NCBI RefSeq assembly: GCF_022549785.1
Contig: NZ_JAKZGO010000004.1
Coordinates: 173,603-237,602, forward strand
Source: Belliella alkalica
Lineage (GTDB): Bacteria > Bacteroidota > Bacteroidia > Cytophagales > Cyclobacteriaceae
Direction: 5' to 3'
Length of the DNA stretch: 64,000 nt
The first letter of the stretch is position 1; each line of letters starts with the position of its first letter. The position numbers and the translations under genes were made by a program. Positions 38,683 through 61,711 of this stretch are shown piece by piece. The notes beneath the pieces are model-generated. The model saw only the letters and a program-made list of their open reading frames with translations, was not told the origin of the DNA and did not search any database.

Positions 38683-38704
38683 CTTATCCCTTTGGTTTGG
38701 GACC

Positions 38705-44117: not shown

Positions 44118-44137
44118 TCAAATTAAAGCAGAAAAAG

Positions 44138-46282
44138 ATGAAAAAATATATATTGATTTTAGCTCTGGCAGCGGTAGGCGTGCTTAATTCCTGCCAGGAC
44201 TTTTTGGATGAAAGACAAGTCGCGAATTTGACGCAGGATTATTACAATGACGAAAATGGTTTGGAGTCCCTTATCAATGGACTATATGTATATGCAAGAG
44301 TAAAGCACGAATGGGATGCCAATGGTGCTAGAATTACTCAAGCAGAAACTGATGCATATATGAGCACAAGTCCTCCTTGGGCTAGAATGGAAGTTGGTAT
44401 TTATGGAAATGATCTAAGTAGTGTGGCAGGTAATATTTTCAATTACTTGGGTGCTGGTAATGCTAGCTTTGCGCCAATGGGTGCATATCCTCACATTAAT
44501 AATTGTAACATTGCTTTGGATGTGTTGGAAAATATTGCTCCGGGAGTTTTTGGTACAAATCAGGCTTTCGCAAACCAGAGAAAAGGAGAGATTTTATTCT
44601 TAAGATCATGGGCATTCTATCTTGTTTCCAATCAGCTCGGAGATGTGCCTTTGTTGCTGGAGCCGAGAAGAGTTGACGATGGAATTTACCACTTTCCCAA
44701 AGCCTCACTCGAAGATATTTATACACAAATCATTGAAGATGTAACTTTTGCTTATGAAAATTTACCAAGTTCAGCCCCTAGGGGAAGATTGACAAAATTG
44801 GCTGCTGGTCATTTTTTGGCCAAGCTTTACCTTAATAGAGCTCAGGCAGCAGAATTTGCAAATAGCAGTGAAGAGTCTTTGAGAATGCTTTATAAAGGAA
44901 ATGTTCCTACAGATCTAGACAATGCTATTCAGATAGCTTCCGAGGTAATTGATGGAGCTGGAGGATTGGCACCTGATTATGATATGTTGTTTGATCCGGC
45001 AATTTCTGAGACAAGTCCACACTCTGAGGTTTTGTGGGCAGGTCAATTTGATGTAAATACAGGACTGAACGGGAGATTTGGAAATAGATCTGTCAATTAC
45101 CATGTTGGAAATTACACTGAGCAATCAGGAGTAGCAAGGGCGATGATCTATGGAAGACCTTTTGGTACATTCAAGCCCACAGATCATGGCTATGACAATT
45201 ACAAAGACAAGATGCATGACTCAAGGTATGCAAAAACCTTCAGACATGAATACATCAGTAATATGGGTTCTAATTCTTCATCTTTTGCTTGGACTGCAGA
45301 AACTGCAGCATGGTGGAATGCCAACAAGCCTGCTGACCAACCTGAAGTGAGAGCTGGTGATAGAAGAATTCAGAATGGTCAAAGAGCTATTATCTATTTG
45401 GAAAATGACCGTGAAAATGCTTTGGATTCAATGGAAGTAATGAGCCAACCTTATCAGTTTATGGTAAGATGGGTGAGATCTTCCACTACAGGAAGGTATT
45501 ATTACAGATTGTTTATCAACGGAGCAAATATGGGATTGGCAACGCAAACTGCCCCATATTTGTCTGTAAAAAAATACGTCGATCCATTGAGAGGTGGTAG
45601 CAATGACGAAGGTAACTTCAACTCAGAAGCTGGCACAAGAGATGTGATTTTGATGCGTTTGGCAGAGACTTATTTGATTAGGGCAGAAGCTTATGGTCGC
45701 AAAGGAGACTATGGTTCTGCTGTAGGTGACATCAATGTGCTGAGACAAAGAGCGGCATTCAAGGCTGGAGAAAACAGACCTTCACTCTTTGCACAGTGGT
45801 ATCCTGAAGCACAGGATTTGGATGCGGCCGAATTGGAGCCTCCATTTGCTGCAAATGGCGATTCATACAATGCAATCATGGTAACAGAAAACCACTTCAC
45901 TCCGGGTACGCCTGAAGCTAACCGTGAAGGTTATATTCCTACTGTAGGCACAAAAAGAGACATGTTTATCCATTTTATCTATAATGAGAAAAACAGAGAA
46001 TTCTTGGCCGAAGGGATTATGTGGGAAGATCTTCATAATGCTGGAATACTTTATGACAGAGTGATGCATTACAATCAGATGGCTTCCAACAGAACAGGAC
46101 TTTGGCCTGTGGCTTCCAATACTGGAGGAGGAAATGGACAGAATGGAAATGGAAAAGGACAAATGCAACCTTTCCATACTTTCAGACCTTGGCCATTCAA
46201 CTACTTGGTACAATTGACAGATGAAACTGGAGCGCCATTGGATGAAGCAGCAAGATCAGCTTATCAAAATCCTGGGTATTAA
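44138..46282 (+). CDS. SusD/RagB-type outer membrane lipoprotein
   Basis: A 714-residue lipoprotein (lipobox LNSCQD) with SusD features: an N-terminal helical repeat core (GEILFLRSWAFYLVSNQLGDVPLLLEP), RLAETYLIRAEAYGRKGDYGSAVGDINVLRQRA, and the C-terminal FRPWPFNYLVQLTDE. It binds glycans at the surface and delivers them to SusC. It is longer than the usual 500-600 residues, with a large insertion in the middle and a short GNGQNGNGKG linker near the end. It forms one operon with SusC; a terminator follows. Confidence 0.93.
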   Translation: MKKYILILALAAVGVLNSCQDFLDERQVANLTQDYYNDENGLESLINGLYVYARVKHEWDANGARITQAETDAYMSTSPPWARMEVGIYGNDLSSVAGNIFNYLGAGNASFAPMGAYPHINNCNIALDVLENIAPGVFGTNQAFANQRKGEILFLRSWAFYLVSNQLGDVPLLLEPRRVDDGIYHFPKASLEDIYTQIIEDVTFAYENLPSSAPRGRLTKLAAGHFLAKLYLNRAQAAEFANSSEESLRMLYKGNVPTDLDNAIQIASEVIDGAGGLAPDYDMLFDPAISETSPHSEVLWAGQFDVNTGLNGRFGNRSVNYHVGNYTEQSGVARAMIYGRPFGTFKPTDHGYDNYKDKMHDSRYAKTFRHEYISNMGSNSSSFAWTAETAAWWNANKPADQPEVRAGDRRIQNGQRAIIYLENDRENALDSMEVMSQPYQFMVRWVRSSTTGRYYYRLFINGANMGLATQTAPYLSVKKYVDPLRGGSNDEGNFNSEAGTRDVILMRLAETYLIRAEAYGRKGDYGSAVGDINVLRQRAAFKAGENRPSLFAQWYPEAQDLDAAELEPPFAANGDSYNAIMVTENHFTPGTPEANREGYIPTVGTKRDMFIHFIYNEKNREFLAEGIMWEDLHNAGILYDRVMHYNQMASNRTGLWPVASNTGGGNGQNGNGKGQMQPFHTFRPWPFNYLVQLTDETGAPLDEAARSAYQNPGY

Positions 46283-46306
46283 TCCAAGAGTTTAGCATAA
46301 CCTTTA

Positions 46307-46351
46307 AAAAAAATCATCAAGGGATTAAAAGTGTCCCTTGGTGATTTTTTT
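46307..46351 (+). terminator. intrinsic terminator after SusD1
   Basis: AAAAATCATCAAGGGA and TCCCTTGGTGATTTTT form a long stem with a nine-nucleotide loop, followed by a T-rich tract. It closes the SusC1-SusD1 operon. Confidence 0.85.
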
Positions 46352-46388
46352 GTTTATTAAAAAACACCTAAGGCATTATCTGTCATTG

Positions 46389-46398
46389 ATTGTACAAT
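46389..46398. promoter_or_regulatory. ATTGTACAAT palindrome upstream of GH105
   Basis: ATTGTACAAT (46389-46398) is a perfect palindrome 92 bp before the GH105 start. Related sites ATTGTACGAT (49401-49410, before GH51) and ATTGATACAAT (52930-52940, before the regulator/SusC2 region) occur in the same PUL. It is a possible operator shared by several PUL genes. Confidence 0.4.
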
Positions 46399-46490
46399 TA
46401 AATAGCCACTTTCAGACACTACAGGAAAGTTTTTTGCTTAATAAGCATATTTTTGGGATTACATTAGGTATATATTTTACATAAAGCACA

Positions 46491-47885
46491 ATGAACAACC
46501 TTATAACCAGAATTATCAATCCATTTATGCTCCTTTTGGCAGCGTTTTTTCTATTGAATTGCCAACCACAATCTGGAGAAAATTCCAATACGACAGAGGA
46601 AAACCCACCTGTAGAAAAGGAGATGAATGACAGTAATACTCCGCTTCATTTGTTGGAGCCAGATTATCCTACTCCGTATGGTGCTCCTGAGGTTTCAGAA
46701 GTGAAAGCTGTTTTGGATAGAGTAAAAGGATATTTAGAGAATACTACTTACACGACCATATTGACAGAAGAAGGCGGTTCCGAAATTACAGATTTTAGCA
46801 AGGTTGATGAAAAATCAGTTTTGAAAAAAGGTGATTTTAGACTTTTGAGCTACGAATGGGGTGTAACTTATTCTGCGATGCTTTTGGCAGGAGAAGTGAC
46901 TGGTGATCAGTCTTACACAGATTATACAAACAATAGAGTGAAGTTTTTGGCGGATCTTTATCCACATTTTGAAAAAATGGGGAACAAAAGACATGCACTT
47001 CACTCAATCGTCGCTCCGGGAGCTTTGGATGATTGTGGAGCACTTTGTGCTTCATTTATCAAGACCGAAGCCAATGGCTTAGATGCAAATGTAGATCCAT
47101 TGATTTCTAATTTCATGGATTATATTATGAATAAGGAATTTAGATTTGAAGATGGAACTTTGGCAAGAAACAGGCCATTGGATAATACACTCTGGTTGGA
47201 TGATCTGTATATGAGCGTTCCTGCGATCGCGCAGATGGGAAAGAAAACAGGTGAGAAAAAGTACTTTGACGAAGCTGTGAAGCAGATTAAACTTTTCTCA
47301 GATAGAATGTTCAACGAGAAAAAAGGACTTTATATGCATGGATGGGTTGCTGATATGGATGTACATCCGGAGTTCCATTGGGCTAGAGCAAACGGCTGGG
47401 CTTTGTTGACAAAAATCGAAGTATTGAAAGTGCTTCCTGAAAGTCACCCAGGAAGAGCAATGATCATGGATTTGTTGCAAAAGCATGTTAGAGGTTTGGC
47501 AGCTTTGCAATCAGGATCAGGATTTTGGCATCAGTTGCTGGACAAAAATGATTCTTACCTTGAGACTTCTGCTACAGCGATCTATGCATATTGTATAGCT
47601 GCTGCAGTCAATGAAGGATGGATCAATGAAAAAGCACATGCTCCAATGGCGATTTTGGCTTGGAATGCAGTAGCCACCATGGTCAATGAACAAGGACAAG
47701 TGGAGGGTACTTGTGTAGGAACAGGAATGGCATTTGACCCTGCATTCTACTACCACAGACCAGTCAATAAGTTTGCCGCACATGGCTATGGCCCTGTAGT
47801 GGCTGCTGGAGCTGAAATTATCAGATTACTTAAGCAAAATAAATTTGAAATCAACGATAGTTCTTTGCAACTATTGGTGAAATAG
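46491..47885 (+). CDS. GH105 unsaturated rhamnogalacturonyl/uronyl hydrolase
   Basis: A 464-residue lipoprotein (lipobox LLNCQP) with the (alpha/alpha)6 barrel signature of GH105: SIVAPGALDDCGALCASF (active-site Asp), NTLWLDDLYMSVPAIAQM, and MHGW...HWARANGWALLTKIEVLKVLP. These enzymes remove 4,5-unsaturated uronic acid from oligosaccharides made by polysaccharide lyases. Its own promoter follows the SusD1 terminator. A hairpin terminator follows the gene. Confidence 0.88.
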   Translation: MNNLITRIINPFMLLLAAFFLLNCQPQSGENSNTTEENPPVEKEMNDSNTPLHLLEPDYPTPYGAPEVSEVKAVLDRVKGYLENTTYTTILTEEGGSEITDFSKVDEKSVLKKGDFRLLSYEWGVTYSAMLLAGEVTGDQSYTDYTNNRVKFLADLYPHFEKMGNKRHALHSIVAPGALDDCGALCASFIKTEANGLDANVDPLISNFMDYIMNKEFRFEDGTLARNRPLDNTLWLDDLYMSVPAIAQMGKKTGEKKYFDEAVKQIKLFSDRMFNEKKGLYMHGWVADMDVHPEFHWARANGWALLTKIEVLKVLPESHPGRAMIMDLLQKHVRGLAALQSGSGFWHQLLDKNDSYLETSATAIYAYCIAAAVNEGWINEKAHAPMAILAWNAVATMVNEQGQVEGTCVGTGMAFDPAFYYHRPVNKFAAHGYGPVVAAGAEIIRLLKQNKFEINDSSLQLLVK

Positions 47886-47890
47886 AAGAG

Positions 47891-47926
47891 TAAGGGTGCA
47901 ATTGAGGTTTGCACCCTCACTTTTTT
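47891..47926 (+). terminator. intrinsic terminator after GH105
   Basis: GGGTGCA (47894-47900) pairs with TGCACCC (47910-47916), with an AAATGAGT-like flank and CACTTTTTTAT after it. This is a classical terminator. Confidence 0.85.
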
Positions 47927-47992
47927 ATTTGAATTGGAAGCTTGTGTTTAAATCAAATAGAACCTTTTCTGCTCTTTTGAACCCGAAATATC

Positions 47993-49324
47993 ATGAAATT
48001 GTATACCGCTATTTTTATCTTAGGTTTTTTACTTTTTGAAGGTGTCAATGCACAAGATCTGGTTAGTTATAAATTTGATTTTGGAGCAGCTAGCAGCAAA
48101 AAGGGATGGATTGCGATTTCTGATACGGATTTGTTTGATGAAAATAAAGGCTATGGTTTTGAAGAAATCCAAAGTTTGGAATCTGTCAAAAGAAGGAAAG
48201 GAAAGGCTTTTAAAAATGGGTTTATTCAAAGCGAAGAACCTTTTTACTTTTCCGTAAGTGTTCCAGAGGGAAATTATAGCGTAAAAGTGACTTTTGGAGA
48301 TCTAAAGGGTTCATCTGAAAATATAGTCAGAGCTGAATCCAGAAGATTGATGGTAAACAAATTGACAACATACACCAGAGAAATCATATCAAAGCAGATG
48401 ATGGTAAATGTACGCCATCCTGAAATTAGCGGTATTGCAAAGAAAGTTGCGCTGAAAGAAAGAGAGCAAGACTATCTCCATTGGGATAGAAAATTGACTT
48501 TGGAATTCAACGGCAGCCTTCCCAAAATCTGCGCGGTAGAAATCACCCAAGTTGACGATGCCATTACCGTTTTCTTGGCTGGCAATAGCACCGTGGTGGA
48601 CCAAGCCAATGAACCTTGGGCTGCTTGGGGACAGATGTTTCCCTTTTTCTTTGATCCTCAGCAAGTTTCCATCGCCAACCATGCTGAGTCTGGAGAAAGT
48701 CTCTTGGCTTTCAAAAGAGAAGGAAGGCTTGAGAAAATCCTAAGCTTGATGAAAGCTGGTGATTATCTATTTATAGAATTCACTCATAATGATCAAAAAC
48801 CTGGAGCAAATTTCTTGGAGCCATTTACTACCTACAAAGAGGAATTGAAGCACTATATCGAGCAAGCTAAGGCAAAAGGTGGAATCCCTGTCTTGGTAAC
48901 TTCGATGTACAGAAGAAACTTCGACAATGAAGGTAAGATTGTCAATACTTTGGGAGATTATCCTGATGCTATGAGACAAGTGGCTATAGAAGAAAAGGTA
49001 GCCTTGATCGATCTGAATGCTATGAGTAAAGTACTTTTTGAGGCAATGGGTCCTGAGAATTCCAAAAAAGCATTTGTTCATTTTCCTGCAGGAACTTTTG
49101 AAGGACAATCCACCGATTTTGCTGATAATACGCACTTCAGCACCTTTGGCGCTTACGAATTGGCAAATTGTGTAGTAGAGGGATTGGTAAATACTGAGCT
49201 TGATTTGAAGTATTACCTAAAGGCTGACATTCCCAAATTTGATCCTTCTAAACCCAGAAAATTTGAAGATTTCTATTGGCCTTTGAGTAAAAAAATCTCA
49301 AGTCAAAAGCCTGATGGAAATTGA
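47993..49324 (+). CDS. CE12-like rhamnogalacturonan acetylesterase with N-terminal beta domain
   Basis: A 443-residue exported protein (signal peptide ending GVNAQ). Residues about 22-185 form a beta-rich carbohydrate-binding-like domain. The SGNH domain follows, with block I as LAGNSTVVDQ (S199) where the usual Asp of GDS is Asn, FIEFTHNDQKPGA, and DNTHFSTFGAYELA. It probably deacetylates the target pectin. The GDS to GNS change is seen in some CE12 members and need not mean loss of activity. It lies between GH105 and GH51 and has its own short leader. Confidence 0.82.
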   Translation: MKLYTAIFILGFLLFEGVNAQDLVSYKFDFGAASSKKGWIAISDTDLFDENKGYGFEEIQSLESVKRRKGKAFKNGFIQSEEPFYFSVSVPEGNYSVKVTFGDLKGSSENIVRAESRRLMVNKLTTYTREIISKQMMVNVRHPEISGIAKKVALKEREQDYLHWDRKLTLEFNGSLPKICAVEITQVDDAITVFLAGNSTVVDQANEPWAAWGQMFPFFFDPQQVSIANHAESGESLLAFKREGRLEKILSLMKAGDYLFIEFTHNDQKPGANFLEPFTTYKEELKHYIEQAKAKGGIPVLVTSMYRRNFDNEGKIVNTLGDYPDAMRQVAIEEKVALIDLNAMSKVLFEAMGPENSKKAFVHFPAGTFEGQSTDFADNTHFSTFGAYELANCVVEGLVNTELDLKYYLKADIPKFDPSKPRKFEDFYWPLSKKISSQKPDGN

Positions 49325-49400
49325 CTTTTTGGCATTTTTACTGATAATCGTATGAATTTAAGTGTTTAAAATACATTTATTAATTATCTTTAGCACTTGT

Positions 49401-49410
49401 ATTGTACGAT
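49401..49410. promoter_or_regulatory. ATTGTACGAT site before GH51
   Basis: ATTGTACGAT matches the 46389 palindrome in nine of ten positions. It lies 18 bp before the GH51 start codon, so a bound protein could block or redirect initiation. Confidence 0.35.
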
Positions 49411-49428
49411 TAATAAACCCTTACCATC

Positions 49429-51396
49429 ATGAAACTCACCTTACTTTCTATTTTATTCCTATTTTTCTCAATAATTGGAACCCAAGCACAAGCTCCAGAC
49501 ATGACTTTGGATATTGATATCAACAAGAAGGGAGCAACAATTGCACCTGATATGTGGGGACTATTTTTTGAAGACATCAATTTTGCTGCCGATGGCGGAC
49601 TCTATGCAGAGATGATCAAGAATTATTCCTTTGAGTTTCCTTCACCTTTTATGGGTTGGAGGAGAATTCAAGAAGATGGAGCCATGGGCTATCACTATAC
49701 GAAGCCACATTTAGATGACAGCAAAAACAAGAAATACCTCCAAATACAGAGATTAAATGACCAAGGTAACTTTGGGATGTCCAATGAAGGATTTAGAGGA
49801 ATGGCAGTTAAGGAAAATGAAAATTACCGATTGACATTCATCGCTAAAGTGGCTAAGGGAGAGAATCTGAGCATCAATGCACAGATTACGAAAGGTAAGA
49901 AAATCTTGGCAGAAACGACAATCGATCAGTTGACAGATGAATGGAAATCGTATGAAGTAATGTTGAAAGCCACTGAGACAGCAGACGGTGTGAATTTCAA
50001 GGTACTTTTGGATGGTGAAGGAGAGTTGGACATAGATATGATTTCATTGTTTCCGGAGGATACATGGATGGGAAGAAAAAGAGGCCTAAGAAAGGACCTC
50101 GTGCAGCTGTTGGCAGATATGAAACCTGGATTTTTGAGGTTTCCAGGAGGTTGTATTGTTGAAGGCTTTGACCTTGAGAACCGATATCAATGGAAGAATA
50201 CAATTGGCGATATGAAGGATCGCGGCACGATGATCAATCGATGGAATATTGAGTTTGCCCACAGAAATGCACCTGACTATTTTCAATCTTTTGGATTGGG
50301 ATTCTTCGAATATTTCCAGCTTGCTGCTGACTTGGGAGCAGAACCACTACCGATATTGAGTTGCGGATTGGCTTGCCAATACAATTCAGGGGAAATGGTT
50401 CCTTTGGCTGCTTTGGACGAATATGTCCAAGATGCCTTGGATCTGATTGAGTTTGCAAATGGATCGACGGATACCTATTGGGGGGCAAAACGTGCTGAAA
50501 TGGGTCATCCTGAGTCGTTTGAACTGAAATATATAGGTGTGGGAAATGAAAATTGGGGGCCACAATATATCGAAAGAGCAGAGATCTTCGAAAAAGCAAT
50601 CAAAGCAGCTTATCCCGAGATAATTATTGTCTCTACTTCGGGACCTTCACCAGACGGACATGAGTTCGACTATTTGTGGAAGGAACTCAAAGCGAGAAAT
50701 GCAGAATTGATTGACGAGCATTATTACAAATCCCCAGAATGGTTTAGAGAAAATGCCCGAAGGTATGATGATTATGATAGAAGTGGACCAAAGGTATTCG
50801 CAGGTGAATATGCAGCCCATTCGACAACTGAAAACGATGCTTTGAAAAGAAACAATTGGGAGGGAGCTTTGTCTGAAGCAGCATTCATGACTGGGCTGGA
50901 AAGAAATGCAGACATTGTGAGATTGGCTTCCTATGCACCACTATTGGCGCATGTGGATGGCTGGCAGTGGGCTCCAGATATGATTTGGTTTGACAATTTA
51001 GGTTCTTATGCCACACCAAATTATTATGTCCAAAAATTGTTTTCCACCAATCCAGGAACCCAAATAATCCAAATAACAGAGAATGGGAATACATTGGCAG
51101 GTGAAGAAGGTATATACGCTTCATCCACCTATGATGAAAATACCAAAGAGTTGATTTTCAAAATTGTCAATACAAATACCGAATCAAGAGCATTTACAGT
51201 AAGGCTAAACGGAAATTACAAAGGAAAAGGGAATGGAAAATGGCTAGAACTGCAATCTGATGATTTGACAGAAGCCCACAGTCTGAAAGAACCAAAAAGG
51301 ATTGTTCCTGAAGAAAATGACATTTCCATACAAAAGAAAAAAATACAAGTTTCCCTAAAAGGACAATCCGTCAACGTATTTAGGCTAAAAATATAA
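49429..51396 (+). CDS. GH51 alpha-L-arabinofuranosidase
   Basis: A 655-residue exported enzyme (signal peptide ending GTQAQ). The GH51 fold has an N-terminal part with MWGLFFEDINFAADGGLYAEMI, the acid/base Glu in GVGNENWGPQY (E374), and the nucleophile Glu in FAGEYAAH (E460). A C-terminal beta-sandwich follows (about 520-650). It removes terminal arabinofuranose from arabinan or arabinogalactan side chains. Its position after two pectin esterase genes fits rhamnogalacturonan or arabinogalactan trimming. Confidence 0.92.
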   Translation: MKLTLLSILFLFFSIIGTQAQAPDMTLDIDINKKGATIAPDMWGLFFEDINFAADGGLYAEMIKNYSFEFPSPFMGWRRIQEDGAMGYHYTKPHLDDSKNKKYLQIQRLNDQGNFGMSNEGFRGMAVKENENYRLTFIAKVAKGENLSINAQITKGKKILAETTIDQLTDEWKSYEVMLKATETADGVNFKVLLDGEGELDIDMISLFPEDTWMGRKRGLRKDLVQLLADMKPGFLRFPGGCIVEGFDLENRYQWKNTIGDMKDRGTMINRWNIEFAHRNAPDYFQSFGLGFFEYFQLAADLGAEPLPILSCGLACQYNSGEMVPLAALDEYVQDALDLIEFANGSTDTYWGAKRAEMGHPESFELKYIGVGNENWGPQYIERAEIFEKAIKAAYPEIIIVSTSGPSPDGHEFDYLWKELKARNAELIDEHYYKSPEWFRENARRYDDYDRSGPKVFAGEYAAHSTTENDALKRNNWEGALSEAAFMTGLERNADIVRLASYAPLLAHVDGWQWAPDMIWFDNLGSYATPNYYVQKLFSTNPGTQIIQITENGNTLAGEEGIYASSTYDENTKELIFKIVNTNTESRAFTVRLNGNYKGKGNGKWLELQSDDLTEAHSLKEPKRIVPEENDISIQKKKIQVSLKGQSVNVFRLKI

Positions 51397-51611: not shown

Positions 51612-52766
51612 TCACAACCTATCCCAAATCAATAACTCAAGCTCTAAACTTGTCCTTTCTTTGCCTTTTACCAAAAAGACTGCTGTGAAGTACTCAACTT
51701 CTTCACCGATCATTTTGTAAAACACATTTTCTACCCAATTTATATCAGTGAATTTATCGGTAGTAGCTTTTACACCGATATCGTGATCCGAAAAAAACAT
51801 AAATTGTTCAGTACCATTTGGACCTTTAATTCTCGATACTACTACATGCTCGTATCTAGTTCCGTCTTCAATGCTTAGGTTGATCAAAGTATCCCTTTCA
51901 GCAGCAGCATCTTTATAGGTAATTGTGTATTGATCAATTTTGAACTTTGAGTTATTGTCATTGAAAAGATCGAGGAATAAGTTTTTGTTTTTCACAGGAC
52001 CGATATAGATCGAATTGACTGCAGAAATGTCTTTTATAGATGTTTGGGAAGTAAAGCGAATGTCAAAATCACTTTTGTTTGAATGAAAAAGTCTAGAGAT
52101 ATTCATGGTGCCATTTGCGGCCATTCCTGTGACATAAGGATAGTTTGCAGGATAAATGTTTTCCTTTTTATCAGGGTTTTGCTCCAAAAATTCATAAAAA
52201 TCTTGGAGGTTATTTATTTCATAGTCTCTGTTCCATCCATTTCTCCCCGTTACGGTATTACCCATAATTCCAAAGAAATCACCGATAAATAGGGTCGTTG
52301 GCTTTTTGTTACTGAAGAAAGGTTGCCACACAGGAACATCTTTATTGTAAATGGACAATCCTAGAATGATTATTGAAAACAAGACCGCCGCGGCGATAAA
52401 AAAGTATCTCTTTTTTCTTCGTGTTCTTATAATTAGCTGAGGGTCTTTTGAGCGCTCTATGAATTCTACTTGATATTGCCCTTTTTTTATCTCAAGTGTT
52501 ATTTCGTCATTTTTTCCATCTGTGCTATAATATTTTTCTAGCTTTTTGCGAAGATGGTAGATATTGACACGCATGTGGGCGGCACTTTTTTCATCAGCAT
52601 AGTCCTTTCCATACAGCTCCATAGAGATGGTATTCTCTTTTAAATCTTTATTCTCAATTGATGCTTCGACAAGATATTTCAGCAACATGCTAGTAGAAGG
52701 GGATCTTGAGAACAACTTATGTTCTAGGACATGTTTGAGAGCTTGAAGTTTTTCGGATTGATCCAT
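51612..52766 (-). CDS. membrane-anchored winged-helix transcription regulator (ToxR/CadC-like architecture)
   Basis: A 384-residue protein. Residues about 1-110 form an OmpR-like winged helix: SPSTSMLLKYLVEASIENKDLKENTISMELYG, then AHMRVNIYHLRKKLEKYY as recognition helix and DEITLEIKKGQYQVEF as wing. A single membrane helix follows (YFFIAAAVLFSIIILGLSIY, about 120-140). The C-terminal domain of about 240 residues is presumably extracytoplasmic (LFIGDFFGIMGNTVTGRN...). There is no receiver, kinase or sigma domain. It is likely to sense a signal outside the membrane and bind DNA directly. It lies between GH51 and SusC2, diverging from SusC2, and is the only regulator inside the PUL. Confidence 0.8.
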   Translation of the reverse strand: MDQSEKLQALKHVLEHKLFSRSPSTSMLLKYLVEASIENKDLKENTISMELYGKDYADEKSAAHMRVNIYHLRKKLEKYYSTDGKNDEITLEIKKGQYQVEFIERSKDPQLIIRTRRKKRYFFIAAAVLFSIIILGLSIYNKDVPVWQPFFSNKKPTTLFIGDFFGIMGNTVTGRNGWNRDYEINNLQDFYEFLEQNPDKKENIYPANYPYVTGMAANGTMNISRLFHSNKSDFDIRFTSQTSIKDISAVNSIYIGPVKNKNLFLDLFNDNNSKFKIDQYTITYKDAAAERDTLINLSIEDGTRYEHVVVSRIKGPNGTEQFMFFSDHDIGVKATTDKFTDINWVENVFYKMIGEEVEYFTAVFLVKGKERTSLELELLIWDRL

Positions 52767-52833
52767 TTTTGGAAGAAGTTAATATTAGTAGCAAAGGCAT
52801 GATAAAATGCCTTTTGAGCAAAATAAGAGCAGG

Positions 52834-52873
52834 TTTTAACGGTTAAAGATACCGTTAAATGTACGTTAAATTT
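52834..52873. promoter_or_regulatory. GTTAAA direct-repeat operator candidate in the regulator/SusC2 intergenic region
   Basis: GTTAAA occurs at 52842, 52854 and 52865 (spacings 12 and 11 bp), with TTTTAAC immediately before. This helical-turn spacing is typical of sites bound by OmpR-type winged-helix dimers. The element is about 75 bp upstream of the regulator start and about 220 bp before SusC2. The rest of the 326-bp gap is AT-rich leader, with an ATTGATACAAT site at 52930. Confidence 0.5.
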
Positions 52874-53092
52874 AGATTATTAATTTTTAATCGCAATCAT
52901 TACATCGCTCAAAGATCGTCAAATAGCTGATTGATACAATTAAATTTTGACTGTTTGTTTCTTTACCAAAAAATCAAATTTATAGTTCAAATCCAGATGT
53001 AAAAACCACTAAAACTAGAGTAATCCGAAATCAATTGTTGATAAATATCGACAAGTCCAAAACAAATCATTTAACATTAACCCAATCTAATT

Positions 53093-56059
53093 ATGAATAG
53101 ACTAATACGAAGGATTATAATCCTTTTTGTTTGTTTTTTGGCTGTAAATTTTGCTGAAGCCCAAAATCAATCAAGCACAATCGAAGGAGTTGTAAAAGAA
53201 GCCGCAAATGGCGAACCCATCCCAGGGGTTACTATTGTAGAAAAGAACACAACAAATGGAACAGTTACAGATATTGATGGAAAGTTCAGTATTAATGTAA
53301 GTTCTCCCAATGCCATTCTTACCATTTCATTTATTGGATTTTCTTCACAAGAAGTAAGCATTACAAACAAAGGCTTCATTGAAGTGTCACTCAGTGAAGA
53401 TATCAGTCAGTTGGATGAAGTTGTTGTGGTAGGTTATGGTACCCAAAAGCGATCTGATATCACTGGTTCAGTAGCTTCAGTTCCCAAAGATAGACTTTCA
53501 AATCTTCCAGTAACTGATATTACCCAAGCGATCCAAGGAACTACAGCCGGTTTACAAGTTTCTCAGGGCTCATCAGTACCAGGTAGCACAGGAGGTCTTC
53601 AAATTAGGGGGGTAAACTCTATTAATGCAAACACAAGTCCATTTCTCGTTGTAGATGGCTCTCCTTTTTTTGGAAGTATCAATGATATTAGTCCAAATGA
53701 TGTTGAGTCAATTGAGATTCTCAAAGATGCGTCGGCTGTTGCGATTTATGGTACTAGAGGAGCGAATGGTGTTATTTTGATTACAACAAAAAGAGGTTCT
53801 ACATCTGCCGGAAAACCTCGAATCAATTATAGTGCTTATACTGGTGTAGAAGGCATTGCAAACTTGCTCAGACCAATGGGTCCTGATCAGTATATTCAGA
53901 AATACGAAGATTTTCTGATTGCCAACAATTTGTCAATGACAAACATTCTCCCAAATGCTGCAGAAGTTGATAATTTCAACAATGGGATTACAACTGACTG
54001 GATGGATGTAGCCACTCAGCAGGGTAGAATAACTGAACATAACTTAAGTATTTCTGGTGGCACTGAGAATGTACAGTACTTTGTGTCTGGTTCAAAAGTT
54101 GATCAAGATGGGGTAGTGCAGGGATATCAGTTTGGGAGGGCATCCTTCAGAACAAATATTGATGCCAAAATCAATGATTATATCAAAGTAGGAACAAGCG
54201 CATTTTTTACGGATAGAAATCAAGATGGAGGAAGAGTGAATTTATTGCTCGCTTCAGCAATGAGTCCATACTCTAGGCCAAGAGATGATAATGGTGATTT
54301 CATTATATTCCCTATGGCACCGGAACAGCTTTTTCTAAATCCAATGCTTGGGCTTACTGTAGATAGAGAAGATCGCCAAAAAACCTTATCTGGCGGCGCT
54401 TATGTTGATATTACTCCTGGAATTATTCCTGGCTTGACTTACAGACTTAATGGGAATTATACCTACAACATCAATAGATTTGCTCAATATACTGGAAGAC
54501 AGTTTAATGATCTTAATGGAACTGCACAAATAAACAATTCTGAAACCACCAATTGGGTATTGGAAAATATTTTATCCTATACCAAAGAAATAGGTGATCA
54601 TAGAATAGATTTCACTGGTTTGTACAGTGCACAAAAAGTTGACTACTTTGCTTCCAATGCGTCTTCAAGAATTTTTACAAATGACGCGCTTTCATTCTAC
54701 AACTTAGGTGCTGGCTCTACACAACAGGCAGGATCTGCTGGTAATGGCTACACATTACTCTCACAAATGGGTAGAATCAATTACTCTTATATGAGTAAAT
54801 ATTTGTTGACAGTAACGGGCCGTCGTGATGGTTACTCAGCATTTGGTGCCAATACCAGTAAGTATGGATTCTTCCCTTCAGTTGCCGTAGGCTGGAATAT
54901 CCATAATGAAAACTTCATGGCAAACGCAACTTCTATAGGAGAATTAAAACTAAGATTGTCGCATGGACAAACAGGAAATCAAGCCATAGGAGTGAATCAA
55001 ACAGCCACTACAGCCAATACTTCATTGCTACCGTTTAACGGAACACCATTGGTAGGAGTACTATTCAATAACCTTGGAAACTCAAACCTAAATTGGGAAA
55101 CAACTACAGCTACCAACCTAGCCTTGGATTTTGGAGTCGTACAAAACAGAGTGAGAGGTAGTATTGAATTGTATAAGACTGTAACTAATGACATTTTGCT
55201 AAGGAGAAACCTGCCAAATATTACTGGATATGGAAATGTTTGGACAAACCTTGGGAAAATGCAGAATGTTGGTTTTGAATTAACTTTGAATACAGTAAAC
55301 ATTGAAAATCAAAACTTCACCTGGGAATCTAACATAAACTATTCTAGGTACAGAAATGAAATTCTGGAGCTTTATGGTGATGGTAGAGACGATATAGGAA
55401 ATAGATGGTTCATAGGACAGCCACTTAGAGTAGTTTTTGACTATGAAAGAGTTGGGGTTTGGCAAGTTGGCGAAGATGCTGCTAATGTTGACCCAGTTGC
55501 GAGGCCAGGTGATTTAAAATTTGTAGATCAAAACGGTGATGGTCAAATCAATGCTGACGACAGAGTAGTACTAGGACAAAGGGATCCATTATGGATTGGC
55601 GGACTGACCAACACGTTTACTTATAAAAACTTTAGCTTGAGTATCTTCCTTCAAGCAGTAAAAGGTGGATTAAAGAACAATGTAGATCTATCTTATGCGG
55701 ATGAAGCTGGTAGAAGAAATATCCCGGAAGAAATCGGGTACTGGACTCCTGAAAATCAGGACAACTACTGGCCTGGTTTAGGTGCTTTCAGAAACTATAG
55801 AGGATATCAGTTTGCTGAGGACTATAGCTTCCTAAGGATTAAAGATGTTCGACTAAGCTATGTAGTACCTAGTGAATTCTTATCGAGATATAGTATTCAA
55901 GGTTTGACAATTTATATGGCAGGTAGAAATCTGTACACTTTTACAAACTGGGTAGGCTGGGATCCAGAGATGAATTTCTCGCCTAGAGGTTCTGGTGACT
56001 GGACCAATAATTACCCATTGGTTCGATCAGTTTCCCTTGGTATCAACCTTACACTTTAA
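53093..56059 (+). CDS. SusC/RagA-type TonB-dependent transporter (second pair)
   Basis: A 988-residue porin with signal peptide (about 1-23, ending AEAQ) and a carboxypeptidase-like domain (IEGVVKEAANGEPIPGVTIVEK). The plug motifs follow (DEVVVVGYGTQKRSDITGSV, IRGVNSINANTSPFLVVDG, RGANGVILITTKRG), then a barrel ending in SLGINLTL. It lacks an STN domain, like the first SusC, but differs clearly in sequence and length, suggesting a different ligand. SusD follows 12 bp later. The regulator gene diverges upstream. Confidence 0.95.
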   Translation: MNRLIRRIIILFVCFLAVNFAEAQNQSSTIEGVVKEAANGEPIPGVTIVEKNTTNGTVTDIDGKFSINVSSPNAILTISFIGFSSQEVSITNKGFIEVSLSEDISQLDEVVVVGYGTQKRSDITGSVASVPKDRLSNLPVTDITQAIQGTTAGLQVSQGSSVPGSTGGLQIRGVNSINANTSPFLVVDGSPFFGSINDISPNDVESIEILKDASAVAIYGTRGANGVILITTKRGSTSAGKPRINYSAYTGVEGIANLLRPMGPDQYIQKYEDFLIANNLSMTNILPNAAEVDNFNNGITTDWMDVATQQGRITEHNLSISGGTENVQYFVSGSKVDQDGVVQGYQFGRASFRTNIDAKINDYIKVGTSAFFTDRNQDGGRVNLLLASAMSPYSRPRDDNGDFIIFPMAPEQLFLNPMLGLTVDREDRQKTLSGGAYVDITPGIIPGLTYRLNGNYTYNINRFAQYTGRQFNDLNGTAQINNSETTNWVLENILSYTKEIGDHRIDFTGLYSAQKVDYFASNASSRIFTNDALSFYNLGAGSTQQAGSAGNGYTLLSQMGRINYSYMSKYLLTVTGRRDGYSAFGANTSKYGFFPSVAVGWNIHNENFMANATSIGELKLRLSHGQTGNQAIGVNQTATTANTSLLPFNGTPLVGVLFNNLGNSNLNWETTTATNLALDFGVVQNRVRGSIELYKTVTNDILLRRNLPNITGYGNVWTNLGKMQNVGFELTLNTVNIENQNFTWESNINYSRYRNEILELYGDGRDDIGNRWFIGQPLRVVFDYERVGVWQVGEDAANVDPVARPGDLKFVDQNGDGQINADDRVVLGQRDPLWIGGLTNTFTYKNFSLSIFLQAVKGGLKNNVDLSYADEAGRRNIPEEIGYWTPENQDNYWPGLGAFRNYRGYQFAEDYSFLRIKDVRLSYVVPSEFLSRYSIQGLTIYMAGRNLYTFTNWVGWDPEMNFSPRGSGDWTNNYPLVRSVSLGINLTL

Positions 56060-56071
56060 AATCTGAAGAAA

Positions 56072-57745
56072 ATGAAAAAATTACTTAATTATATAGGAAT
56101 TTTATGTGTGTTGGTATTTATCAATACAGCTTGCAGTGACTCTTTTTTGGACGAAAAAGTCTTAGATAGATATGCTCCTGAATCATTAAATGATAGGTTA
56201 GGTTTCAATGCAGCCGCCATTGGTTTACATAGACAGTTTATATCAATGTACACCAATGATCAAGATCAAACTCTGCAAGGCGTTTGGCATTTAGGCACAG
56301 ACATTCTTTGGGCTCCATCTGGAAGATCAAACGGTGATGCTAGACCTTATTTTAGCTATTCTCAAATGAATTCTTTGGATCCTGCAGCAAGAAAAATTTG
56401 GAGTGCTTTATACATTTTGATCAACAATGCCAATCTATTGATCAATGCTGCTGAAAACAACAATCCTACAGGAATGACAGCTGCGGAAATTAGCGCATTC
56501 AATGCAGAAGCTCGTTTTTTCAGAGCATATGCTTACAATATGCTAGCAACGCTTTATGGTGATGTCCCTCTTTTGACTGAGCCATTGACTGCACCCAAAA
56601 CTGACTTCGTTCGTACTCCTATCAATGAGGTGAACGCAGTGATCGAACAAGATTTGATTTTTGCTACAGAATTTCTTCCTAACGCTGGGTCTGCACGAAA
56701 TGAAAGTAGAATCAATAAAATGATTGCACATCAATTGTTGGCAGAAGTTTACCTTAGACTAGATAAGCCAGCTGATGCTGAGGCTCAAGCTTCTGCTGTA
56801 ATAAACAGTGGAAGATACTCTCTTATCAATCAAAGATTTGGAGTAAAAGCTAACGAACCAGGTGATTATTTTTCGGATATGTTTATCAAAGGCAATCAGA
56901 GAAGGAATCAAGGCAATACTGAATCTATTTGGGTTCTTGAAATGGAAAACCCTTCTGATGTGACTGGTGGAGGTTTTGGAGCTCCACAACAAAGAAGAAT
57001 TTGGATTGGGGGTTATTACGACGTGCCAGGAATGGAACCTACAGATTCGCTGGGCGGTAGAGGTATCGCTAGAGTTAGACTCAACAACTGGGTACTCTAT
57101 GGTCTCTATGATGATGGTGATATGCGTAATTCTCAATATAATATTAAAAGAAAACTTTATTTCAATCACTCTGGGAGCATTTATAACAATATAAGAGGTC
57201 AAGAAGTCCCTTATGGAGTAAATAGTGAGTTTACACTTACAAATGGAAATGTCGTTAGAATTTTTCCTGCTGATACAATTTGGAGAATGGCTCCTTACTC
57301 TATGAAATGGGGACAGTATGATACTAGAGACCCTTTTGGCTATGCAATGTGGAAAGATTTTATGGTGATGCGCTTGGGTGAAACTTACTTGCTCAGAGCT
57401 GAAGCTAGAATGAAACAAGGTGACCTTGCTGGAGCTGCATCAGATATCAATGTTTTGAGGGTAAGAGCAAATGCACCTTTGGTGACCGAAGCTCAGATGA
57501 ATCTAGATTTTATCCTGGATGAAAGAGTAAGAGAACTCCTAGCTGAAGAAAATAGAAGAATGACACTTGTAAGAACAGGAACGCTCGTGGAAAGAGCAAG
57601 AAGATTGACTGGCACAAGTCCTCTAGCAAATGGTGAAATTGAAACTACAGCTGGTCTTCAAAATTTTCATATGAAACTACCAATCCCTCAATCAGAAATA
57701 GATCTAAATAAAGACGCTGAGCTGAAGCAAAATGAAGGGTATTAA
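56072..57745 (+). CDS. SusD/RagB-type outer membrane lipoprotein (second pair)
   Basis: A 557-residue lipoprotein (lipobox INTACSD) of typical SusD length. It has the tetratricopeptide-like core (AEARFFRAYAYNMLATLYGDVPLLTEP), RLGETYLLRAEARMKQGDLAGAASDINVLRVRAN, and the C-terminal LPIPQSEIDLNKDAELKQNEGY. It is shorter than the first SusD by about 157 residues. It is part of the SusC2-SusD2 operon, followed by a hairpin terminator. Confidence 0.94.
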   Translation: MKKLLNYIGILCVLVFINTACSDSFLDEKVLDRYAPESLNDRLGFNAAAIGLHRQFISMYTNDQDQTLQGVWHLGTDILWAPSGRSNGDARPYFSYSQMNSLDPAARKIWSALYILINNANLLINAAENNNPTGMTAAEISAFNAEARFFRAYAYNMLATLYGDVPLLTEPLTAPKTDFVRTPINEVNAVIEQDLIFATEFLPNAGSARNESRINKMIAHQLLAEVYLRLDKPADAEAQASAVINSGRYSLINQRFGVKANEPGDYFSDMFIKGNQRRNQGNTESIWVLEMENPSDVTGGGFGAPQQRRIWIGGYYDVPGMEPTDSLGGRGIARVRLNNWVLYGLYDDGDMRNSQYNIKRKLYFNHSGSIYNNIRGQEVPYGVNSEFTLTNGNVVRIFPADTIWRMAPYSMKWGQYDTRDPFGYAMWKDFMVMRLGETYLLRAEARMKQGDLAGAASDINVLRVRANAPLVTEAQMNLDFILDERVRELLAEENRRMTLVRTGTLVERARRLTGTSPLANGEIETTAGLQNFHMKLPIPQSEIDLNKDAELKQNEGY

Positions 57746-57975: not shown

Positions 57976-59184
57976 ATGAAAAAAATAAACCTATTTTACA
58001 CCATCCTTCTTATTTATACCATTGGTACAGCCCAAGCGAATAATCAAGAAGATAGAAAAACCTTTATTTCCCACCTTACCAAAATAGCAGATCCGGTTTT
58101 GACGAATCTAAGTCAGGATAAGCTCAAGGAAAATATGCCTGTGGAGACTGCTCCAAATGCTTATGGAGATAGGGATAAAGTGACTTACCTAGAAGCTTTT
58201 GGAAGACTTGTGTCTGGTATGGCTCCTTGGTTGGAACTTGGCCCTGATGACACGGAGGAAGGTAAGTTGAGAGAGAAATACATCCTTTTGGTTCATCAGT
58301 CACTCAAAAATGCCACAGATCCCAATGCAAAGGATTTTATGAACTTTACAGAAGGTGGTCAGCCTTTGGTGGATGCGGCATTTCTAGCCCAAGGCTTATT
58401 ACGTGCACCCACCCAACTTTGGGACAGGCTTGATTCCCAAACCAAAAAGAACACAATTGAAGCTTTAAAATCATCTAGAAGTATCACTCCATATTATAGT
58501 AATTGGCTGCTTTTTACTGCCATGGTAGAAGCAGCTTTGATCAAGTTTGACGGTGAAGGTGACCAAGTTCGAATTGCCTATGCCCTCAACAAGCATAAAG
58601 AGTGGTATCTTGGAGATGGTGTCTATGGTGATGGTCCTGATTTTCATTTTGATTATTACAATAGCTTCGTGATTCAGCCGATGATTTTGGATGTTACAAA
58701 AACATTGCTGGAAGTAGGAAAAGGGAACAAAGGGGAGTTTGAGCTTTTCCTCAAAAGAGCAAGAAGATATGCCGCAATCCAAGAAAGATTGATTTCGCCA
58801 GAAGGAACTTATCCCGTAATTGGAAGGTCCATGGCCTATAGGTTTGGCGCATTTCAAGCACTTTCCCAAATAGCCCTTTGGGAGGAATTGCCACAAGAAA
58901 TTGCTCCCTCACAAGTTCGTGGAGCCCTGATGGCAATTGTGGACAAACACATGCAGTCTGATTCAATGTTTGACCAGAATGGCTGGTTGAAACTCGGTTT
59001 TCATGGCAATCAACCCGAATTGGCTGAGCCTTATATTTCTACAGGAAGCCTTTATTTATGTTCGGAAGTCTTCTTGGTTCTAGGTTTGCCTGCTTCTTCA
59101 GATTTTTGGGCGAAGCCTAAAGAAGAATGGACACAGCAGAAAATCTGGGGTGGAAAAAAGGCAGTGATTGACAAAGCACTCTAA
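57976..59184 (+). CDS. DUF2264 protein, possible GH154 beta-glucuronidase
   Basis: A 402-residue exported protein (signal peptide ending GTAQA). It matches the DUF2264 pattern: TYLEAFGRLVSGMAPWLELG, FTEGGQPLVDAAFLAQGLLRAP, YYSNWLLFTAMVEAALIKFDG, DGPDFHFDYYNSFVIQPMI, and LISPEGTYPVIGRSMAYRFGAFQ. The family is likely an (alpha/alpha)6 barrel. DUF2264 proteins have been linked to GH154, reported to contain beta-glucuronidases; I am confident of the domain, not of the activity. It is the first gene of the enzyme operon; the next gene starts 1 bp after its stop. Confidence 0.75.
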   Translation: MKKINLFYTILLIYTIGTAQANNQEDRKTFISHLTKIADPVLTNLSQDKLKENMPVETAPNAYGDRDKVTYLEAFGRLVSGMAPWLELGPDDTEEGKLREKYILLVHQSLKNATDPNAKDFMNFTEGGQPLVDAAFLAQGLLRAPTQLWDRLDSQTKKNTIEALKSSRSITPYYSNWLLFTAMVEAALIKFDGEGDQVRIAYALNKHKEWYLGDGVYGDGPDFHFDYYNSFVIQPMILDVTKTLLEVGKGNKGEFELFLKRARRYAAIQERLISPEGTYPVIGRSMAYRFGAFQALSQIALWEELPQEIAPSQVRGALMAIVDKHMQSDSMFDQNGWLKLGFHGNQPELAEPYISTGSLYLCSEVFLVLGLPASSDFWAKPKEEWTQQKIWGGKKAVIDKAL

Positions 59185-59185
59185 A

Positions 59186-60487
59186 ATGATCCACAAAATT
59201 CAGATATCATTTCTGCTGCTTTTGCTAATAATGTCATCTTGTCAAGCCCAAAAGTTAGAAAAGGCTCAAATCACCACAAGTAATGTAGGAGAAGGCTGGG
59301 CAAATAACTCTGTCAATACAGTTATCTTCAGAAGAAATTCTTTGGATTCTGATGGCAAGCATCAGTTTATTGCCTACTACGATCCAGAAGGATTTGTCGT
59401 GCTTGGCAAAAGGGAATTGTCATCAGATACATGGGTGCTAAACAAAACAGCATACAAGGGAAATGTCAACGATGCGCACAATTCCATCAGCATTGCCTTG
59501 GATGGGGAAGGATATCTCCATATCTCTTGGGATCATCATGACAATGAATTGAGATATGCCAAAAGCAAGGATCCATTGAGTCTTGAGTTGGGGGAAAAGG
59601 AATCAATCACTGGCCTACAGGAATCAAAAGTAACCTATCCAGAATTCCATAGATTACCAAATGGGAATTTGATATTTATGTACAGGTCAGGATCTTCAGG
59701 AAGAGGCAATTTGTTGATTAATAAATATGATTTGAAATCAAAATCTTGGCAGCAAATCCATACCAATTTGATTGATGGGGAAGACCAAAGAAATGCATAT
59801 TGGCAGTCTTACGTCGATCAACTTGGAAATATCCACTTAAGTTGGGTTTGGAGAGAGTCTTGGGATGTATCGACCAATCATGACATGGCCTATGCTGTAT
59901 CCAAAGATCAAGGGTTGACTTGGGAAAAATCATCGGGAGAAAAATACAAGCTCCCAATCACTGAAAGTTCAGCTGAATATGCTTGGAAAATTCCCCAGAA
60001 GAGTAGCCTAATCAATCAAACAGGTATGACGGCCGATAATAATGGCAATCCATATATCGTCACCTATTGGGCAGATGAAGAGATTCCTCAGCTCCAAGTG
60101 ATTTACCTAAAGGATGGATCATGGAAAAAAGCAAGCCCAAACCACCGGACTCAACCCTTCTACCTCGGCGGTGGAGGAACCAAAAGAATCCCGATTTCCA
60201 GACCTCAGGTGCTTGTGGATGATCAGCAAAAGATCTATATCATCTATAGGGATGAAGAAAGAGACAATAAGGTAACTCTTGTATATCAAAACAAATCAAA
60301 ATGGGATATCAGAGATTTAACAAAAGATCCAGTCGGCCAATGGGAGCCAACTTATGATATTTCACTTTGGAAAAAGATGAAATCTCTACACTTATTTGTG
60401 CAAAATGTAGAACAAATCGATGGGGAAGGAATAGCTGAGGGAAAGTCAAGCACTGTTCGAATTATAGAATTAAATCACAATCAATAA
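59186..60487 (+). CDS. BNR_4-family beta-propeller glycan enzyme (GH145/PL24/PL25/PL27-like)
   Basis: A 433-residue lipoprotein (lipobox MSSCQA) from the ATG at 59186; the TTG at 59168 lies inside the upstream gene. It has repeated propeller blades and the BNR_4 motif NVNDAHNSISIALDGEGYLHISWDHHDNELRYAKS. Later blades include EYAWKIPQKSSL, GMTADNNGNPYIVTYW and GGGGTKRIPISRPQVLV. This fold is shared by ulvan lyases, L-rhamnose-alpha-1,4-glucuronate lyases and GH145 rhamnosidases. In this PUL a lyase acting on glucuronate would explain GH88 and GH105 nearby. The exact family cannot be fixed from the sequence alone. Confidence 0.75.
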   Translation: MIHKIQISFLLLLLIMSSCQAQKLEKAQITTSNVGEGWANNSVNTVIFRRNSLDSDGKHQFIAYYDPEGFVVLGKRELSSDTWVLNKTAYKGNVNDAHNSISIALDGEGYLHISWDHHDNELRYAKSKDPLSLELGEKESITGLQESKVTYPEFHRLPNGNLIFMYRSGSSGRGNLLINKYDLKSKSWQQIHTNLIDGEDQRNAYWQSYVDQLGNIHLSWVWRESWDVSTNHDMAYAVSKDQGLTWEKSSGEKYKLPITESSAEYAWKIPQKSSLINQTGMTADNNGNPYIVTYWADEEIPQLQVIYLKDGSWKKASPNHRTQPFYLGGGGTKRIPISRPQVLVDDQQKIYIIYRDEERDNKVTLVYQNKSKWDIRDLTKDPVGQWEPTYDISLWKKMKSLHLFVQNVEQIDGEGIAEGKSSTVRIIELNHNQ

Positions 60488-60505: not shown

Positions 60506-61711
60506 ATGAAAAAGCTTTTTTCTCTAGTTATCTTACTGTCTTCGATTGTTTTTTCGAATTGTCAGGTCAAAAGTAATAGTATTTCAACACAAGAGGCCGA
60601 TTTGAACGCCAAATTGGACGATGTCATTTTCAAGGCATCGAATCAGTATAAATTTATGATGGAAATCCTGCCTGAAAACAGATTTCCAAAAACTTATCAT
60701 GAGAAAAATGATAAACTAGAAACATCAAATTCAGGCTGGTGGTGTAGCGGTTTTTACCCTGGATCTTTGCTTTATATGTATGAGCAAAACAAGGATGCTG
60801 AACTTTTAGCTGAAGCCAAGAGAATCATGAAAGTACTCGAAAAAGAAAAGTACAATACTACTACACATGATCTAGGTTTTATGATGTTTTGCAGTTTTGG
60901 AAATGCATTGGACATTTCTCCTGAAAACGACTATAAGGAGATCTTGATTCAAAGTGCAAAGTCATTGAGCTCAAGATTTGACGAAAAAGTAGGATTGATA
61001 AAGTCTTGGGACTCGAAGGAAGGTGATTACTTGGTGATCATTGACAATATGATGAATCTTGAACTGCTTTTCTGGGCATCTGAAGAGACAGGAGACCCAA
61101 CTTACAGAGATATAGCAATCACACATGCTGACAATACGATCAAAAACCATTTCCGTGAGGACTACAGTACTTATCATGTAGTCAACTATAACCCACAAAC
61201 TGGCGAGGTAAACAAAAAGCACACAGCACAAGGATATGCTGATGATTCTGCATGGGCTAGAGGTCAGGCATGGGGACTTTATGGCTATATTGTGATGTAC
61301 AGATTTACCAAAGATGAGAAATACCTCGACCTTGCAAAAAACATCGCCAATTTGATTTTGGATCACCCAAATTTGCCAGAAGATAAAATTCCTTATTGGG
61401 ATTTTGATGCTCCAAATATTCCAGATGCATTGAGGGATTCTTCAGCAGGTGCTATCATAGCTTCAGCGCTATTTGAGCTATCTACATTCGTAGATAAAAA
61501 AGACTCCAAAAAATACTTTACCGATGCAGAAACCATGTTGACATCTCTTTCCTCTGCCCCTTATTTGGCAGAACCAAAGACAAATGGTGGTTTTATCCTC
61601 AAGCATGGCGTAGGACATATTCCTGAAAATACTGAAGTGGATACACCACTGACTTATGGAGATTACTACTTCTTGGAAGCCATCAAAAGATATAAAAACC
61701 TATCAAAATAA
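60506..61711 (+). CDS. GH88 unsaturated glucuronyl hydrolase
   Basis: A 401-residue lipoprotein (lipobox FSNCQ). GH88 motifs are SGWWCSGFYPGSLLYMYEQN, HDLGFMMFCSFGNAL (active-site Asp), YLVIIDNMMNLELLFWAS (second Asp), AQGYADDSAWARGQAWGLYGY, and YWDFDAP...RDSSAGAIIASAL. It hydrates the double bond of 4,5-unsaturated glucuronic acid ends, releasing a 4-deoxy keto uronic acid. It is 18 bp after the BNR_4 gene and 6 bp before GH43, within one operon. Confidence 0.93.
   Translation: MKKLFSLVILLSSIVFSNCQVKSNSISTQEADLNAKLDDVIFKASNQYKFMMEILPENRFPKTYHEKNDKLETSNSGWWCSGFYPGSLLYMYEQNKDAELLAEAKRIMKVLEKEKYNTTTHDLGFMMFCSFGNALDISPENDYKEILIQSAKSLSSRFDEKVGLIKSWDSKEGDYLVIIDNMMNLELLFWASEETGDPTYRDIAITHADNTIKNHFREDYSTYHVVNYNPQTGEVNKKHTAQGYADDSAWARGQAWGLYGYIVMYRFTKDEKYLDLAKNIANLILDHPNLPEDKIPYWDFDAPNIPDALRDSSAGAIIASALFELSTFVDKKDSKKYFTDAETMLTSLSSAPYLAEPKTNGGFILKHGVGHIPENTEVDTPLTYGDYYFLEAIKRYKNLSK

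Follow-up and report, generated by a model that had tools for sequence, protein, structure and literature searches.

A membrane-anchored winged-helix regulator and its conserved operator in a polysaccharide utilization locus of Belliella alkalica

How does a polysaccharide utilization locus (PUL) learn which glycan lies outside the cytoplasm when the only regulator seen in it is a small protein with one membrane segment? The question is raised by a stretch of 64,000 nucleotides of the Belliella alkalica genome (the window; positions 173,603 to 237,602 of contig NZ_JAKZGO010000004.1, assembly GCF_022549785.1), which holds such a regulator gene upstream of and divergent from SusC2, the second SusC gene of the PUL. 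The gene, its predicted topology, its family, its divergent context, an operator, the co-occurrence of operator and regulator, and the promoter spacing in relatives were all computed here. The protein is probably a one-component membrane glycan sensor that binds the divergent operator and activates the SusC2-SusD2 (SusCD2) operon. The features on which this rests are:

51612..52766, minus strand: membrane-anchored winged-helix regulator, open reading frame (ORF) of 384 amino acids with an ATG start
Regulator residues 1-104, 119-142 and ~145-384: winged helix, membrane segment and outer alpha/beta domain
52835..52870, minus strand: operator TTTAACGTACATTTAACGGTATCTTTAACCGTTAAA, direct half-sites at 11 and 12 base pairs (bp) plus one inverted half-site

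Domains of the regulator

The regulator is a membrane-anchored winged-helix protein with a distant OmpR-type DNA-binding domain. Its N-terminal part gives a weak Pfam match to Trans_reg_C (E 0.0011; 19.4 bits versus a cut-off of 26.2), and matches at E <= 0.1 were obtained for 35 of 77 and 24 of 36 relatives. In the AlphaFold2 model of the whole protein (mean pLDDT 92.0, pTM 0.66), residues 1-104 are helical with a hairpin at the end, resembling a winged helix, residues 109-139 form a long helix across the membrane, and the remainder folds as a compact alpha/beta domain. A single hydrophobic segment is predicted at residues 119-142; the net charge before it exceeds the charge after it in 58 of 77 regulators, which fits a predicted topology with the N terminus inside.

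The outer domain has no convincing sequence match in Pfam, NCBIfam or the PDB, and PDB searches with both the protein and a profile returned nothing for it. A Pfam match to ESP (E 0.0084) fell under the Pfam cut-off and is taken as chance. Residues 145-384 were also modelled alone (mean pLDDT 92.4, pTM 0.90), and for this model no fold match better than E 0.001 was found. The initial annotation, made from the letters alone, had described an OmpR-like winged helix, one membrane segment and an outer domain of about 240 residues resembling nothing known, and each part of that description holds. Arg 180, His 328 and Arg 371 are invariant in 77 of 77 outer domains, position 180 lying inside a peptide pattern that served to find part of the loci. 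Cysteine is absent from the window regulator and from 45 of the 77 outer domains. The closest relative with a species name, from Belliella calami, is 91% identical. A search of the regulator's own genome found no second match at E <= 10, so that paralogs sharing its work elsewhere in the genome are rejected.

The operator and promoter in the divergent spacer

A contig scan confirmed 96 relatives, of which the best 80, at least 34% identical, were kept. With genes taken as the longest open frames and neighbours below 150 amino acids passed over, the nearest upstream ORF is divergent from the regulator in 79 of 80 loci. In the window the divergent intergenic region ahead of SusC2 spans 326 bases (52767-53092) and makes up the part of the initially annotated interval (51612-53092) that lies beyond the regulator ORF. 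Alignment of nine such spacers leaves one conserved block, the operator, between drifting flanks. The core of this block, TTAAC-N6-TTAAC-N13-GTTAA, occurs without a mismatch in 60 of 80 spacers and with two or fewer in 75, and no core within two mismatches arose in a first-order Markov control with one resampling per spacer. Over the 1,616,585 bases of the 80 loci, both strands included, there are 61 exact cores: 60 in divergent spacers and one in locus L086. The operator lies 51-184 bp from the matched regulator start in 78 of the 80 loci. With tandem half-sites spaced by 11-12 bp, OmpR-type winged helices could line up along the same face of the DNA.

L086 is the sole locus without a divergent neighbour, and there a gene of 332 amino acids (3664-4662) separates operator from regulator. 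This gene is taken as a member of the PDDEXK_2 transposase family, since the tally of a scan of 40 neighbours counts one such member and, of the 40, this gene alone is on the regulator's strand; a transposase-type gene in that place would make the exception fit the rule. The L086 operator (3545-3577) lies 66 bases before a minus-strand gene of the short-chain dehydrogenase cluster, which is followed by a UxuA-cluster gene. The locus offers a natural test of how far adjacency matters to regulator and operator.

Whole genomes were scanned with the 36-letter operator pattern, allowing up to three mismatches. The window's genome contains one site, ahead of SusCD2; 395 genomes of the phylum contain five sites in three genomes, each directly upstream of a close regulator copy; and among 196 genomes of the family, 11 have one site each, and all 11 belong to the 12 genomes whose regulator match reaches E <= 1e-75. 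Every site found in these scans is directly upstream of a regulator copy of at least 37% identity. Four congeners lacking the regulator have no operator site, and the reversed pattern gave none among the matches listed for the own-genome, phylum and family scans. A chance AT-rich match is thus rejected by the Markov control, the locus scan and the genome scans alike. Each close regulator copy appears to own a single promoter region. No operator copy was found in front of the SusCD1 half of the PUL, and since the single genomic operator stands ahead of SusCD2, the regulator may serve just one half of the PUL.

The position of the operator relative to the promoter was examined in 68 loci with at most one operator mismatch (exact-box scan) and in 75 loci with at most two (offset scan, offsets -60 to -10). 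In 37 of 75 loci a target -7 box (CAAAnnTA as read on the strand of the regulator, no more than one mismatch) stands precisely 33 bases away from the operator; no other offset scanned exceeds 11 of 75. In the 68 loci, no exact box is found at a constant position on the side of the regulator. The motif TAnnTTTG at -12 to -5 is the flavobacterial sigma-A box, as described for Flavobacterium psychrophilum in the portion of PMC9723704 used here. Counted from that box, the operator of the relatives would extend from about -38 to -70. This is a usual place for an activator that contacts RNA polymerase, and a fixed distance between operator and box across the family is as expected for an activator.

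Glycan operons of the window and of the regulator family

The PUL around the regulator has the order GH115, GDSL esterase, SusCD1, GH88/GH105, GDSL protein, GH51, regulator, SusCD2, DUF2264, BNR_4, GH88 and GH43, which confirms the reported place of the regulator between GH51 and SusC2; a GH2-like gene, judged by eye, follows GH43 directly past the window end. Its components are:

36103..40429: GH115 (plus strand) and GDSL-type esterase (minus strand), adjoining the PUL
40821..51396, plus strand: first half of the PUL (SusC1, SusD1, GH88/GH105, GDSL protein, GH51), operator-free upstream
53093..56059, plus strand: SusC2, with CarbopepD_reg_2 and Plug and no STN match, leading the predicted target operon
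56072..57745, plus strand: SusD2
57976..59184, plus strand: DUF2264 protein
59168..60487, plus strand: BNR_4 protein
60506..61711, plus strand: GH88-type protein, related to unsaturated glucuronyl hydrolases
61718..63619, plus strand: GH43 protein

Among PDB entries, the DUF2264 protein is close to ones named beta-galactosidase and beta-D-glucuronic acid dehydratase and is also related to one named glucuronate dehydratase. The BNR_4 protein has BACCELL_00856 and BACINT_00347 as close relatives and an L-rhamnose-alpha-1,4-D-glucuronate lyase as a more distant one. Together with the GH88 relatives and with GH115, GH43 and GH51, this gene content suggests a rhamnose/glucuronate-capped arabinogalactan-type glycan as the substrate. 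Enzymes of such kinds are linked to arabinogalactan proteins.

No second regulator gene was seen among PUL ORFs of at least 120 amino acids (36.1-63.6 kb), none was seen by eye among ORFs of at least 130 amino acids in ~19 kb beyond the window, and no sigma/anti-sigma genes were seen in the PUL. A hidden extracytoplasmic function (ECF) sigma or hybrid two-component system (HTCS) regulator is rejected because no such gene occurs among the PUL ORFs inspected. Both SusC1 and SusC2 show CarbopepD_reg domains, Plug and barrel, with no Pfam match to STN, in line with the earlier view that neither has the N-terminal domain for ECF signalling. The proposal that this protein is the only regulator of the PUL therefore stands in that no other was seen, and is weakened in that its single operator may leave the SusCD1 half to itself.

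After the PUL (L129:6321-9298, ~5-8 kb past the window end) come a gene resembling sodium/solute symporters and a divergent gene resembling kinases, a possible sugar uptake unit as judged by eye. The non-PUL part of the window encodes two Band_7 proteins, at 32353-33861 (flotillin-like) and 20550-21527.

Sequence places the regulator in a Bacteroidota family. Of 98 kin genomes, 17 have a match at E <= 0.001, as do 16 of the 395 from the phylum; some of the matches are winged-helix-only proteins. Full-length relatives are 18-91% identical in an alignment of 36 (A1), which joins the window protein to rows from a whole-protein search for 35 of the 47 loci L002-L048 and omits ten short or winged-helix-only matches (L013-L017, L020, L032-L035) as well as L036 and L048. 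Two further alignments (A3, A5) join it to 76 of the 80 loci, omitting L065, L096, L105 and L121. Many relatives come from Zobellia, Maribacter, Aquimarina, Lutibacter, Labilibaculum, Echinicola and Flammeovirga, genera that, going by name, we take to be known from sea or saline habitats. Nine of the matches left out of A1 (L013-L017, L020, L032-L034) are proteins of 426-531 amino acids that match over the winged helix only, with no membrane segment directly after it; they are probably soluble relatives.

The divergent neighbours in the 80 loci fall mainly into six clusters: GH2 (24), BNR_4 (15), SusC (11, plus one fragment), UxaC (9), 3-keto-disaccharide hydrolase (7) and GH43 (6), together 72 of 80 plus the SusC fragment. 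Pfam run on all 80 neighbours gave the same counts except for GH43, with four matches at E 1e-5. The architecture, which the initial annotation had suggested counting next to susCD in other genomes, does occur beside glycan operons there; only 12 of 80 loci, however, have SusC (in one case a fragment) as the divergent gene, against 61 of 80 for the GH2, BNR_4, UxaC, 3-keto-disaccharide hydrolase and GH43 clusters. Anywhere within 10 kb, SusC was found in 18 of 80 loci, by two-seed SusC/SusD profiles that overlook other TonB receptors. A SusC-specific family is thus rejected: since the divergent neighbours are mostly non-SusC glycan genes, the regulator partners glycan operons generally and not susCD in particular. 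Downstream neighbours are mixed (54 on the opposite and 25 on the same strand, n = 79), the largest cluster comprising 12 of 79.

Neighbour type tracks the tree of the outer domain, with 19 changes against a shuffled mean of 48.0; the winged-helix tree has 22 changes. Such a fit would be predicted if the outer domain decides which glycan is read, as it may, although common descent alone could give the same fit. A uronate marker (a BNR_4, GH88, DUF2264, UxaC or UxuA cluster gene) is present in the divergent operon of 41 of 80 loci. Two neighbours do not support a uronate-only ligand: the GH2 protein in L098 is nearest to beta-galactosidases, and the BNR_4 protein of L067 (Labilibaculum) has no PDB match at E 0.001.

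More distant members were found in 20 regions and are 25-35% identical, apart from one member of the subfamily; regulator and upstream neighbour diverge in 19 of the 21 spacers listed. Of 22 upstream stretches of these members, a single one, from the subfamily member in L141, has the exact operator core; all the rest differ from it at three positions or more. Asn occupies position 68, in the predicted recognition helix, in all 11 near members and in none of the 25 distant ones; these counts are quoted from A1 because the peptide patterns of the contig scan favour Asn 68 and a GWxRDxxIN motif. One distant branch is divergent from a DUF1553/DUF1549/cytochrome-c protein with laminin-G (L137, L138, L140, L146, L150). 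Genome G091 (3.6 Mb, 84% complete) has 19 regulator matches, far above any other genome in both searches; two of its regions (L155, L156) adjoin sulfatase- and GH29-cluster genes, and one regulator pair is tail-to-tail. The glycan link is firm for the subfamily and tentative for the wider family.

A one-component glycan sensor and its alternatives

In the explanation that we consider probable, the protein would act as a one-component transcription regulator in the inner membrane. Its outer domain, placed in the periplasm, would detect a glycan breakdown product, most likely an arabinogalactan-type oligosaccharide terminating in rhamnose/glucuronate. A signal through the single membrane helix would alter the seating of the N-terminal winged helices on the DNA, where they would occupy three tandem half-sites and one inverted half-site in the divergent spacer. 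Bound beside the promoter, the regulator would recruit RNA polymerase to the SusCD2 operon (SusC2, SusD2, DUF2264, BNR_4, GH88 and GH43).

Several observations weigh against this explanation. The operator has 3-5 mismatches in the spacer of five of the 80 loci, L086 among them, and is missing within three mismatches for both regulator copies of genome G592 (34% and 31% identical) and the second copy of G014 (36%). In the window itself the -7 box fits poorly, with three mismatches by hand count, and the eight nearest loci have two or three; activation at the window is therefore deduced from the relatives. The best fold match to the outer domain in Foldseek is BcsB (E 6.4e-3, TM 0.41), and the likeness to BcsB and to GH67/GH115 glucuronidases is partial, all at E > 0.001, so that nothing is built on it. 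The pairing of PUL and regulator varies among genomes: of six other regulator-bearing genomes, three have a SusD2 orthologue at 76-88%, two at 38-40% only, and G014 has none at E <= 1e-50. Nine neighbours of distant members comprise five DUF1553/DUF1549 cytochrome-type proteins, three of outer-membrane receptor type and one with an Ig domain, so that the outer domain need not always sense glycans. Finally, operator binding, activation, periplasmic sensing and the nature of the ligand are steps that we infer.

The same protein and operator could instead repress the SusCD2 operon, or the regulator's own gene only, with release on ligand binding. The closeness of the operator to the regulator start within a shared divergent spacer, and a window promoter not recognisable at the activator offset, would suit a repressor; the relatives, however, keep the operator at one fixed offset upstream of the divergent gene's -7 box while no exact box keeps a constant position on the regulator's side, which makes repression unlikely. 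ToxR/CadC-type regulators often sense envelope signals, and the outer domain might likewise respond to ions, pH or envelope stress, the glycan operons being tuned to that signal in a CadC-like manner. CadC is tabulated with acid resistance in the part of PMC10269533 relied on here, and some distant members do flank DUF1553/DUF1549 operons. The subfamily nevertheless adjoins many kinds of glycan operon, its neighbours follow the outer-domain tree (subject to the caveat of common descent), and the window protein, like many of the outer domains, lacks cysteine; we regard such sensing as quite improbable. Even less credence is given to a regulator encoded elsewhere that mainly drives the PUL, with the window protein as a minor modulator. 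Some Bacteroides regulators are predicted to control distant genes, according to the portion of PMC3878776 drawn on, and another factor may serve the SusCD1 half, which has no operator copy. The genomic operators are, however, directly upstream of close regulator copies, one each, as for a dedicated SusCD2 switch, and remote control is very unlikely.

A sensor of the kind preferred here is not without precedent. As the same portion of PMC3878776 describes it, SusR combines a sensor in the periplasm with a C-terminal DNA-binding domain in the cytoplasm within a single membrane protein, and activates a SusCD operon. The earlier proposal of a different route of glycan sensing was thus overstated, because the logic of a single membrane protein carrying a glycan signal to DNA, which context and operator suggest for the window regulator, was already known. 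Set against that description of SusR, the window regulator differs in its N-terminal, Trans_reg_C-like DNA-binding domain, in the order of its domains, in its outer domain and in an operator with 11-12 bp steps.

ToxR and CadC have an N-terminal OmpR-type winged helix, and the window regulator shares with them such a domain (as a weak match), a single membrane pass, a C-terminal outer domain and the lack of a kinase. Transmembrane regulators, in which Bacteroidota are rich, have been surveyed (PMC10269533, as far as the part used here extends). Unlike ToxR and CadC, the window protein has an outer domain whose searches against Pfam and PDB families met no ToxR/CadC homology, no cysteine, no conserved partner gene such as ToxS among its mixed downstream neighbours, and operators found singly with each close regulator copy. 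It resembles HTCS and ECF systems in that glycan operons would be controlled by a signal from outside the cytoplasm, but its 384 amino acids include no histidine kinase, receiver or AraC domain and no sigma/anti-sigma domain, and SusC1 and SusC2 show no STN match. Among the open-access titles covered, which are part of the lists, none describes the regulator or its operator; as far as the open-access literature tells, the outer domain, the operator and the layout of one regulator to one operon are new.

Polysaccharide-locus regulators outside gut Bacteroides seem, from our impression of the literature, little studied. More tentatively, the family may form a Bacteroidota-wide class of dedicated glycan switches, in which each membrane-tethered copy would have its own conserved operator and divergent operon, and an outer-domain fold without a close solved match would read uronate- or galactose-bearing oligosaccharides in the periplasm. 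If so, SusR and HTCS would be joined by another design that carries a glycan signal from membrane to DNA. A simple DNA pattern would then show which operon each regulator controls in degraders of marine or saline habitats, and the regulator would be a compact one-protein sensor whose ligand could be guessed from its neighbour genes and directly tested.
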